Positions 28,553 through 32,025 of a stretch of DNA of 33,627 nt are shown piece after piece; the first letter of the stretch is position 1, and every line of letters starts with the position of its first letter. Location: assembly GCA_036500345.1 (NCBI GenBank), contig DASYCE010000029.1, positions 1 to 33,627 of the forward strand, written 5' to 3'. Under the pieces are notes generated by a model, which was given only the letters and a program-made list of their open reading frames with translations, made no database searches and had not been told where the DNA came from. This DNA comes from Gemmatimonadales bacterium (GTDB lineage: Bacteria > Gemmatimonadota > Gemmatimonadetes > Gemmatimonadales > GWC2-71-9). A program made the translations under genes and the position numbers.

Positions 28553-29044
28553 ATGCAATACCAGATGAAGCAGAAGCTCTTCTCCTGGGGCGACGACTTC
28601 ACCATCCGAGACAGTGCCGGAAACGACGCCTTCTTCGTCGACGGCAAGGTCTTCTCCCTCGGGCATCAACTCTCGTTTCAGGACATGTCGAAACGCGAGC
28701 TCGCCTTCATCAAGCAGAAGCTCCTCGCCTGGGGTCCCACCTACGAACTCTATCGTGACGGGGCACTCGCCGCCGTGGTGAAGAAGCAACTCTTCACGCT
28801 GTTCCGTTGCACCTTCAGCGTCGATGTCCCCGGTCCCGATGATCTCTCCGCCCTGGGCAACTTCACCGACCACGAGTACGTGATCTCGCGCGGCGGCAAC
28901 GCCGTCGCCACGGTGTCGAAACAATGGTTCGCACTGACCGACACGTACGGCGTCGATGTCGCCGATGGGGAAGACGCCGTGCTGCTCCTCGCCAGTACCG
29001 TGGTGATCGACATGGCATGTCACCCGGACGACAACCGGCGATGA
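28553..29044 (+). CDS. LURP-one-related (YxjI/LOR) family protein
   Basis: 163 residues, the full length of the family. It starts [20 protein letters not shown] and continues with YFVDGK-like [54 protein letters not shown] and [20 protein letters not shown]. This is the beta-barrel fold related to Tubby-type domains, found in bacteria as short stand-alone proteins. The biochemical role is unknown, though membrane or phospholipid association has been suggested for the fold. No signal peptide is present. The TATCTT element ends only 8 bases before the ATG and no ribosome-binding site is visible, so the message may be leaderless. It leads a plus-strand group with the molybdoenzyme (18-base gap) and the phosphatase. 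Confidence 0.85.
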
Positions 29045-29062: not shown

Positions 29063-30130
29063 ATGTCGTCTGAACGGCGCAATTTTGACGCGGAAGGGTT
29101 CAACAGCGCCGCGTGGCCTGATCCCGCGGCCCCCGGCGGAATCACCGAGACGGCGCGGTTCTTCTCCAGGAGCCACGCCCCGGTCCCCCATGTCGATCCG
29201 GACCGATGGCATCTCGAGATCGGCGGCCTCGTCCAGCGGCCACAGCAGCTCCGCCTCGCCGATCTCGCCGCGATGCGCCGCCGCGAAGTCACGGCAACGC
29301 TGGTCTGCGCCGGATTGCGCCGGTCGGAGCTCCTCCGCGTGGCGCCCCTTCCCGGTGAACTTCCGTGGGGTCCCGAACCAGCGAGTACCGGCCGGTGGAG
29401 CGGGGTCCCGCTCGCCGACATCCTCGGAATCGTCGGCATCGACCCCGATGCACGGTATGTCGAATTCACCGGGCTCGATCAGATCGATCGCGATGGGCGC
29501 CAATTCGGCTTTGGCGGCTCGATCGACATCGAGAAGGCGCGCACCGCCGACGTGATTCTCGCGACGCATCTCAATGACGAGCCGCTGGCAGCGCGTCACG
29601 GAGCGCCGGTACGCGCCGTCGTTCCCGGGTGGATCGGGGCGCGCAGCGTGAAATGGCTCGGCGCGATCACCCTCCGCCGTGATCCGTCGGACAACTACTT
29701 CCAGACCCGCGCCTACCGGATGCAGCGCGAGATCGACCCGTCGAAACCGCGCGATGTTTCCGCCGGGACGGCGCTGGTAGAGGTATCGCTCAACGCGGTG
29801 ATCGTCGACCCTCGCGACGGCGCCAGATGCCGGCCGGGGCCAATCACCATCCGGGGTTGGGCAATCGGGTCGGGGGGTACGCCGCTCCGATCGGTCGAGG
29901 TCTCGGCCGATGACGGCATCCACTGGACCGCGGCCCGGATCTCCCCGACCGGACGGTGGGCGTGGAGTCTCTGGGAAGCCAACCTGTCATTCCAGACCGG
30001 CACGCACGTCATTGCAGTAAAGGCGACGGATGCCGACGGCCGAACCCAACCGGCTTCACTCGATGAGGTGTGGAATGTCAAAGGCTACTGCAACAACGCG
30101 TGGCATCGAATTGCCATTGAGGTCGACTAG
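29063..30130 (+). CDS. Sulfite oxidase-fold molybdopterin oxidoreductase
   Basis: 355 residues with the two-domain layout of sulfite oxidases. The molybdopterin domain contains TLVCAGLRRSE, with Cys82 as the expected molybdenum ligand. The usual motif reads CAGNRR, so Asn is replaced by Leu. WSGVPLADIL, GFGGSIDIEKA and HGAPVRAVVPGWIGARSVKWLG follow. The dimerisation domain (immunoglobulin-like) runs from about residue 230 (SLNAVIVDP through IRGWAIGSGG, SVEVSADDGIHWTAA) to the end GYCNNAWHR. There is no haem domain and no Tat or Sec signal, so unlike many bacterial SorA/SorT enzymes it seems cytoplasmic, as in the haem-free plant type. Sulfite is the likely but unproven substrate. The phosphatase start is nested in its last codons. 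Confidence 0.85.
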   Translation: MSSERRNFDAEGFNSAAWPDPAAPGGITETARFFSRSHAPVPHVDPDRWHLEIGGLVQRPQQLRLADLAAMRRREVTATLVCAGLRRSELLRVAPLPGELPWGPEPASTGRWSGVPLADILGIVGIDPDARYVEFTGLDQIDRDGRQFGFGGSIDIEKARTADVILATHLNDEPLAARHGAPVRAVVPGWIGARSVKWLGAITLRRDPSDNYFQTRAYRMQREIDPSKPRDVSAGTALVEVSLNAVIVDPRDGARCRPGPITIRGWAIGSGGTPLRSVEVSADDGIHWTAARISPTGRWAWSLWEANLSFQTGTHVIAVKATDADGRTQPASLDEVWNVKGYCNNAWHRIAIEVD

Positions 30131-30692
30131 GGGAGGTCGCGCCGGCCGCGTGATCCTCGCGCTCGCTGCGGCCGCGATCGGCGCAGCACCGCTGGCGGCG
30201 CAGGCCGGCCCGGCCCGCATCATCATCGTCCGTCACGGCGAGAAACCGGGCGACTCACGCAATCCCCATCTCTCTCCAGCCGGCGTGAAGCGATCACACG
30301 ATCTGGTGACCTTCATCACCACCACCCCGGCGATTCGGGACGGCGGCCTTCCGGTCGCGATCTACGCCACGCAGACGACGCACGATGCCGACGGCCAGCG
30401 CACCCAGGAAACGGTTGCGCCGCTCGCGCACCAGCTCGGCCTGGCCGTCCGCACACCATATCACGGCAGCGAGCCGGTCAAGCTCGCACGCGCAATTCTG
30501 CACGATAAGTCACTCGCGGGGAAGACGATCCTCATCTGCTGGAATCACGAAGAACTCCCGCAGCTCGAAGCGGCGCTCGGCGCACGACCGCTATCGCGGA
30601 AGTGGAAAAGCAGCAACTTCGACGAAGTCGACGTGATCACCTACCACAAGGGACGCGCGGCGCTGGGCGTCACCCGCTACGGCGCGCCGTAA
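30075..30692 (+). CDS. Exported histidine phosphatase family protein
   Basis: 205 residues from an ATG with GAGG 6 bases upstream, which overlaps the molybdoenzyme end by 56 bases. A GTG at 30150 is an alternative but lacks the basic region. A long basic N-terminus and hydrophobic run VILALAAAAIG end at LAA|Q (Gln43). The catalytic RHG motif is IIIVRHGEKPGD near the mature N-terminus; the second histidine is in ILICWNHEELPQL. This is the branch-2-like, phosphoglycerate-mutase-type fold; many such exported proteins have unknown phosphoester substrates. The end is tail-to-tail with the MBL-fold gene with only 27 bases between, in which I see no strong terminator. Confidence 0.8.
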   Translation: MSKATATTRGIELPLRSTRGGRAGRVILALAAAAIGAAPLAAQAGPARIIIVRHGEKPGDSRNPHLSPAGVKRSHDLVTFITTTPAIRDGGLPVAIYATQTTHDADGQRTQETVAPLAHQLGLAVRTPYHGSEPVKLARAILHDKSLAGKTILICWNHEELPQLEAALGARPLSRKWKSSNFDEVDVITYHKGRAALGVTRYGAP

Positions 30693-30719: not shown

Positions 30720-31907
30720 TCAATCCGCGGGGCGTCGCGGTCCGAGCAGCGACACCCAGCCGCATTCGCTCAGTACGTCGAGATAACGGTGCAGTCCGTC
30801 GGTTCCGATCACGAACGGATTGGTCATCGGTCCCTTGGCGCGTCGGAGTGAATCCATCCTCGGCACGGCATTGTCGACAAAGGGGTAGCTGTTGAGCTCG
30901 ACATCGGCGTGCGCCGAGTCGGCAACCTTCGACAGGTGCGCCAGCGATGTGATGTAGGCGTTCTTCATGTCGCTTCCGGCCGGAATCTCGGTGCCCCCCA
31001 GGACCACTGCCGTGTGCGGCGTGCCGTGATCGGTCACCGGGACGATGACCGAAATCGTACCAGCAGTATGCGATGGAGTCATGAGGACCGTCACCGTTTC
31101 GTTGCCGAGGGTGAACGTCTGCCCGTCGACTGCGGTGAGATCGCGATGGGGTACGTCATCGACGGCCGCGCTCTCGTTCCCGGCTGACCGGTTTCCGCCC
31201 GTCGAGCCGCTGCGGCCGAATCCGCCACCACCGCCGCCGCGTCCTCCGCCAAACCCTCCGCGGCCGCCACCAAATCCGCCGCCGCCGCGACCACCCGTGC
31301 CGCCGCCCCCACCGCCGCCTCCGCCGCGCCGGCTGCCACCGCCGAGCGAATCACCCGCGCGAGTGCGCGACGGCCGGATCGCCGCGAGGCGTGCCGCTTC
31401 CGTCCAGTCTTCGGGTGACATGATCACCTGTGCTGCGTACTTGTCCTGGAAATATTTCGCGCCGCCGTATTCGTCGCCGTCGGCTTGCGTGACAATCACG
31501 TACTTCACTTGCGCCGGATCGAGGCCGACCTTGCGGAGCCCGCCCGCCACCATCGACTCGGCCGACCCGGTGTGCATTGCGTTGATCAGGATGATCCCCG
31601 CCGACGTCTGCACCGCCCACGCGCCGAGGCGGTCGGTTCCGACGTAATACAGGTTGTCGAAGACGCGGGTCGGCGGAAGGTGGGATTCCTTCCCACCGGC
31701 ACGATACGGATCCCCCTCGCCGAGTTCGTTGCATTGCACCTCCTCCGTGGTCAGGAAGGCACTTCCAGCGAGTTCGCGCGCCCGGGCGAGGTGCTGTCGC
31801 GCTTCATCCGTTGGACTTTGCGCATCAAGACGCGCCGGCGAACAGACGATCAGCGAGCAGGTGGTGGCAGCGATCAGGAATCGAATCGGGTGGTGACGCA
31901 TCGGCAT
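30720..31907 (-). CDS. Secreted metallo-beta-lactamase-fold protein with degenerate zinc site and glycine-rich insertion
   Basis: 395 residues from an ATG with GGAG 4 bases upstream (a second ATG at 31901 is equally possible). The signal peptide ends at LDA|Q (Gln30). The fold is like subclass B3 enzymes: VFDNLYYVGTDRLGAWAVQTSAGIILINAMHTG, then YVIVT, and TPSHTAGTISVIVPV later. But the HxHxDH zinc motif reads QADGDE (Gln141, Asp143, Asp145, Glu146), and the last histidine, usually in an N-H-P context, is Tyr341. Only His280 and Asp145 remain. Between the halves lies a 50-residue segment (189-238) with 36 glycines plus Arg and Phe. Normal hydrolase activity is therefore doubtful; a binding or structural role, or a different metal site, is possible. 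It is an intact reading frame, so not an obvious pseudogene. Confidence 0.8.
   Translation of the reverse strand: MPMRHHPIRFLIAATTCSLIVCSPARLDAQSPTDEARQHLARARELAGSAFLTTEEVQCNELGEGDPYRAGGKESHLPPTRVFDNLYYVGTDRLGAWAVQTSAGIILINAMHTGSAESMVAGGLRKVGLDPAQVKYVIVTQADGDEYGGAKYFQDKYAAQVIMSPEDWTEAARLAAIRPSRTRAGDSLGGGSRRGGGGGGGGGTGGRGGGGFGGGRGGFGGGRGGGGGGFGRSGSTGGNRSAGNESAAVDDVPHRDLTAVDGQTFTLGNETVTVLMTPSHTAGTISVIVPVTDHGTPHTAVVLGGTEIPAGSDMKNAYITSLAHLSKVADSAHADVELNSYPFVDNAVPRMDSLRRAKGPMTNPFVIGTDGLHRYLDVLSECGWVSLLGPRRPAD
31194..31343 (-). repeat. GGN-codon low-complexity repeat (glycine-rich insertion)
   Basis: An imperfect trinucleotide-like tract of (C/T)CG-CC units on the plus strand reads on the minus strand as 36 glycines in 50 codons. 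These are interspersed with Arg and Phe as RGG, FGGG and RGGF units, inside the MBL-fold gene. It probably grew by slippage and should vary in length between strains. Confidence 0.8.
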
Positions 31908-31957: not shown

Positions 31958-32025
31958 CGTTCCATTCCGAGCAGCACGCCATCCGCTGTTGCTACACTAC
32001 GCACAGCCCCACCCGAAGGACGACG

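Follow-up and report, generated by a model that had tools for sequence, protein, structure and literature searches.

Gene and features at the locus

The window, meaning the whole stretch of DNA that was analyzed (33,627 nucleotides), comes from a soil-type Gemmatimonadota bacterium. Its minus strand carries a gene for a protein of the metallo-β-lactamase (MBL) fold, with orthologues in two sister species, here called G012 and G273. The protein opens with a hydrophobic leader, followed by a region that is conserved among its relatives and by the MBL-fold domain, which contains a glycine-rich tract (Table 1). The coordinates, the QADGDE motif, Tyr341, the glycine count and the RGG and FGGG units described by the first-pass annotation were all confirmed, as was the integrity of the reading frame. 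An in-frame upstream ATG at 31982 is possible as an alternative start; the start at 31907 is favored because it gives a normal signal peptide. Sequence comparison shows that the leaders of the orthologues are likewise hydrophobic and end in TAQ or PAQ.

Two further plus-strand genes were noted in the window, one for a bacterial LURP-one-related (LOR) domain protein and one short open reading frame (ORF). The latter gave no Pfam match at an E value of 1e-4, and the start listed for it lies within the end of the gene before it.

Table 1. Positions of the features discussed, in window coordinates
Feature	Residues	Position	Strand	Remark
Exported B3-type MBL-fold protein, complete coding sequence	395 aa	30720..31907	minus	Intact reading frame
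Probable Sec signal peptide (..PARLDAQ), without lipobox	1-30	31818..31907	minus	From sequence, judged by eye
QADGDE, replacing HxHxDH (B3 positions 116, 118, 120, 121)	141-146	31470..31487	minus	
Glycine-rich RGG/FGGG tract	189-238	31194..31343	minus	36/50 Gly
His280, equivalent of ligand H196, retained	280	31068..31070	minus	Tyr in G273 orthologue
Tyr341, replacing ligand H263	341	30885..30887	minus	Tyr in G012, Thr in G273
LOR domain protein		28553..29044	plus	Adjoins molybdopterin oxidoreductase gene
Molybdopterin oxidoreductase gene		29063..30130		
Short ORF		30030..30692	plus	RHGE motif suggests histidine phosphatase

Fold and family assignment

The Pfam model Lactamase_B (PF00753) matched the window protein with 39.9 bits (cutoff, 22.7) over residues 97 to 290, a region that spans the tract. 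The closest solved structures by sequence are FEZ-1, GOB-18, and BJP-1, all of subclass B3. An AlphaFold2 model that was based on 13 aligned relatives has a core with pLDDT values mostly above 90, and the solved structures nearest to it are again all of subclass B3 (Foldseek E value of 2.6e-15). The nearest is FEZ-1 (1l9y), with a Z score of 27.0 over 248 residues and an rmsd of 3.0, and BJP-1 (3lvz) gives a Z score of 26.8. The predicted structure is thus a B3 fold in which the tract region is disordered. The curated cutoff and the modeled fold both place the protein in the MBL superfamily and, with the probable signal peptide, bear out the secreted MBL fold that had been proposed from the sequence.

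The assignment does not extend to a described B3 family. The top NCBIfam model, CAR_gen_B3 (NF000469), scores 113.6 bits against a cutoff of 500, and the subclass B3 equivalog NF033105 scores 98 bits against a cutoff of 240. Relatives with intact ligands also stay below the NF033105 cutoff (132 to 137 bits) and for this reason are likewise only B3-like, with predicted activity. Subclass B3 is marked by the ligands H/Q/E116, H118, and H196 and by D120, H121, and H263, where the window protein has Q, D, and H and D, E, and Y, respectively. The B3-RQK set (R118, Q121, and K263) is also absent, the corresponding residues being D, E, and Y. By its ligands, as read from the sequence, the window protein is outside subclass B3, though it is pseudoenzyme-like.

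Orthologues, phylogeny, and selection

The G012 orthologue (L042; contig PNAE01000007.1 of a congeneric palsa MAG) is 68% identical to the window protein, reads QAQGDD, keeps H196, and has tyrosine for H263. The G273 orthologue (L014 and L051; JANYAG010000153.1, congeneric) is 57% identical, reads QGEGDH, and has tyrosine for H196 and threonine for H263. The tract is present in both, so that the substitutions and the insertion, whose conservation the first-pass annotation had left to be checked, recur together in two sister species, though with different ligand sets. The G273 gene is split over two contigs, and we infer the junction from the fact that both pieces end in the tract.

Scanning of genome contigs found no orthologues beyond these two. 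The gene is present in 3 of the 10 genomes of the genus, and across 102 genomes of the family high scores were obtained only for the three clade members and for an intact-type gene of genome G194. The SHxHxDH motif is intact in about 15 members of the class, at roughly 33 to 41% identity, none of which has a tract at the corresponding position. A 26-protein tree joins the three orthologues in one clade (support, 100/100) on a long stem of 1.56, and the eroded, tract-bearing clade has a single origin. A separate Gemmatimonadota relative, L041, reads SEPHGDH and resembles the Glu116 variant of the B3-E type.

Within the clade the dN/dS ratios are 0.13, 0.22, and 0.21, and among intact relatives they range from 0.11 to 0.25, all of these values being rough because synonymous sites are close to saturation. 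Over the whole gene, the window and G012 copies differ at 86, 80, and 228 first, second, and third codon positions. The long stem, the patchy presence (three genomes of the genus, few in the family), and the unequal length of the tract between species are what would be expected of a decaying gene, or of an assembly artifact, with slippage behind the tract and relaxed selection behind the loss of ligands. This explanation is very improbable and is largely refuted by the frame, open in three species, by the low dN/dS ratios, by the concentration of change at third positions, by the conservation of the tract despite synonymous change, and by the location of the G012 copy on a 1.85-Mb contig. The lone decaying or misassembled copy that the first-pass annotation had named as its own refutation was therefore not found. 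The sequence comparisons point instead to a gene maintained by purifying selection.

The metal-ligand site

The six ligand positions of the window protein read Q-D-D-E-H-Y. Gln116 is a known working substitution in B3-Q enzymes (PMC10318434), and D120 (D145) and H196 (H280) are retained, so that the clear losses are confined to positions 118, 121, and 263. The original statement that most zinc ligands had been lost thus holds for these three positions, is arguable at position 116, and fails at the other two. Across the three species, position 118 is D, Q, or E, position 121 is E, D, or H, position 196 is H, H, or Y, and position 263 is Y, Y, or T. D120 is the sole canonical ligand of the six that is common to all three orthologues, and Q116 is likewise present in all of them. 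Residues that are otherwise invariant in the family have been lost, among them Trp75-Tyr76, Ser140-His141, His143, FNF at 308 to 310, and SNH at 339 to 341.

Among 15 intact relatives, 47 positions are invariant. With metal-motif blocks chosen by hand, 3 of 12 such positions are retained within the blocks versus 23 of 35 elsewhere, a difference of modest strength (Fisher P = 0.02). The six ligands taken alone give a P value of 0.05 to 0.06 (0.054), and the block test at a looser threshold of 85% is not significant (P = 0.17). The picture is one of a fold that was kept and an active site that was released.

Because D120, H196, and Q116 remain in the window copy, its sequence would allow one weakly bound metal. 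The site of the protein (Gln116, Asp118, Asp120, Glu121, and His196) could then be rebuilt, weak, or restricted to a single metal, in an enzyme that works with a different metal or substrate. Precedents exist in the active B3-Q, B3-E, and B3-RQK variants (PMC10318434; PMC7381538) and in the H121 and H118 mutants of CAR-2, which retain part of their activity (PMC12434095), and the conservation of Q116 and D120 in all three species fits such a site. However, positions 118, 121, 196, and 263 vary among these same species, and the flanking family-invariant residues are gone as well (all those listed above apart from the two histidines). A maintained metal site would not be expected to show this combination, and CSR-1, with three changes only, was already metal free in crystals (PMC7381538). 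A rebuilt enzyme is on this evidence improbable, whereas it is very likely that the protein is maintained and lacks a di-zinc center of the B3 type. Since selection maintains the protein despite its eroded site, it probably has a new, nonenzymatic job.

The glycine-rich tract

The Gly/RGG tract extends over about 60 residues, and the segment given in Table 1 is its glycine-richest 50. RGG occurs at residues 194, 207, 216, and 223 and FGG at residues 212 and 219. Together with its flanks (residues 182 to 249) the tract has a pLDDT of about 37 in the AlphaFold2 model and is probably disordered; it contains 8 arginines, 3 phenylalanines, and 2 acidic residues and is net positive. The two halves of the alignment to FEZ-1 flank the tract, which places the insertion between query residues 167 and 254, opposite the gap at FEZ-1 residues 97 to 123. 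In the L1 enzyme the α3-β7 loop (residues 149 to 171) gates the active site (PMC9977270), and by its position the tract appears to replace this loop beside the active site.

Between the window and G012, 45 of 56 aligned tract residues are identical, and at 27 of these the codons differ; the differences by codon position number 10, 7, and 32. The tract is in frame with a conserved gene and is found again in both sister species, with much synonymous change, and it is thus no chance reading. Its FGGGRGGFGGGR core is common to all three orthologues, and its length differs between species.

Similar tracts are frequent in the same genome, where a count made by DNA pattern rather than by protein located runs of eight GGN codons at about 20 separate sites. 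Many of these lie inside proteins of exported type, including an S9 peptidase, an amidohydrolase, sortilin/BNR-type propellers, a TPM-domain protein, and an HlyD-type protein, and a shorter glycine tract is present in an M61 peptidase that also has a PDZ domain. Glycine or RGG inserts in exported-type proteins were noted at loci L010, L084, L088, L090, L092, L093, L098, and L099. A search of this genome with a coding pattern for Gly5-Arg-Gly2 gave 16 matches (reversed control, 3); elsewhere in the phylum the pattern is common in certain genomes only. In G273, a protein identified by eye as ribosomal protein uS5 (L053, 1501-1854) has an N-terminal extension rich in RGG and NRGGQGG.

The genome scan rules out the tract as a unique feature of the window protein, and it leaves the proposed link from RGG units to nucleic acid unsupported, as many exported-type proteins carry tracts of this kind; cytoplasmic RNA binding would in any case be unlikely because of the export signal. 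The tract is best read as the flexible-loop type common in exported proteins of this lineage, and not as a nucleic-acid-binding domain. Nor did the idea of a special family defined by both features hold up. Relatives L126 and L127 have intact HAHGDH motifs and carry a glycine/RGG tract in an N-terminal linker, which makes the insertion and the loss of zinc ligands separable. For the same reason the tract was rejected as a cause or marker of zinc loss.

That unrelated exported-type proteins have tracts of similar style, and that L126 and L127 have theirs elsewhere in the chain, would also suit a protein in which the fold is kept for its own function and the tract serves as a spacer, neutral or of slight use, that binds nothing. 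The recurrence of the FGGGRGGFGGGR core in all three orthologues speaks against such a spacer, as does a tract identity no lower than that of the whole protein despite the many synonymous changes, although this last comparison is weakened by the low-complexity composition. A mere spacer is rather unlikely.

Genomic context and proposed role

The gene neighborhood is not conserved, the window and the G012 locus having only this gene in common. The neighbors of the G012 copy are a transposase and a VIT-family transporter; those in G273 are an S46 peptidase, on the upstream side, and an M28 peptidase, next to the downstream contig piece. At the window, G012, and G273 loci, no partner or operon that would point to a specific binding role was found. 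Pairing with a close active paralogue was considered and rejected: none was found in the same genome, where the B3-like and other MBL proteins are all distant.

The reading that we favor, and consider reasonably probable, is that of an exported pseudoenzyme of B3 lineage, reused for binding or scaffolding, whose glycine loop is the flexible loop typical of the lineage. The protein would be an offshoot, in part of one Gemmatimonadota genus, from a CAR-like B3-type MBL-fold family with an intact di-zinc motif. It would no longer hold a di-zinc center or hydrolyze β-lactams. Acting at the cell surface or in the periplasm, it may bind or serve as a scaffold through the face of its metal-free pocket together with the glycine loop, which is flexible and net positive and whose arginine, phenylalanine, and glycine residues may give flexible contact. 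The case for a pseudoenzyme is drawn from three species only. Of the earlier proposal of a scaffold or binding protein rather than a hydrolase, the second part stands, as the sequence suggests that the protein is probably no zinc hydrolase. With neither a partner nor a conserved neighborhood, the binding or scaffolding step is one that we infer, and such a role, taken by itself, is plausible but slightly doubtful. A bolder version, in which the clade is a new exported family with a B3 scaffold minus its metal center and a conserved, disordered FGGGRGG-type loop over the old active site that binds or self-assembles at the surface, is possible but appears unlikely.

If the favored reading is true, the protein would go further than the B3-RQK variants, which are still partly active, and be a clear MBL pseudoenzyme from a bacterium; it also serves as a warning that MBL matches in environmental resistance surveys may be nonenzymes. 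The glycine/RGG loops across the exported proteome of the lineage are possibly the more general question.

Comparison with known systems

A search of the open-access literature found nothing directly relevant on glycine-rich proteins or B3 pseudoenzymes of Gemmatimonadota, which does not prove that no such work exists. CAR enzymes resemble the window protein in fold, signal peptide, and best NCBIfam score, and their model is among the two best for its near relatives. CAR-2, however, has the full canonical set of six ligands and confers β-lactam resistance (PMC12434095), whereas the window protein is far below the CAR cutoff, has eroded ligands, and contains a glycine tract, a feature not reported for CAR.

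The B3-Q, B3-E, and B3-RQK variants (GOB-1/18, SIE-1, and CSR-1/SPR-1) tolerate substituted ligands on a B3 fold, with activity described (PMC10318434; PMC7381538), and B3-Q has Gln116 in common with the window protein. In these variants one or three substitutions are fixed and activity is kept, whereas in the window clade four ligand positions vary and neighboring active-site residues are gone.

Prokaryotic low-complexity regions (LCRs) are often glycine rich and can be conserved (PMC6821194). The window tract is similar to bacterial Gly/RGG LCRs in composition and predicted disorder but differs in its setting, the active-site loop of a protein that is folded and exported. CPSF100 and INTS9 also have an MBL fold that lacks key metal-site residues or is inactive, and they serve as partners in a complex (PMC4819959). 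These are eukaryotic relatives of nucleases that form heterodimers with an active paralogue, whereas the window protein is bacterial and exported and has no close active paralogue.
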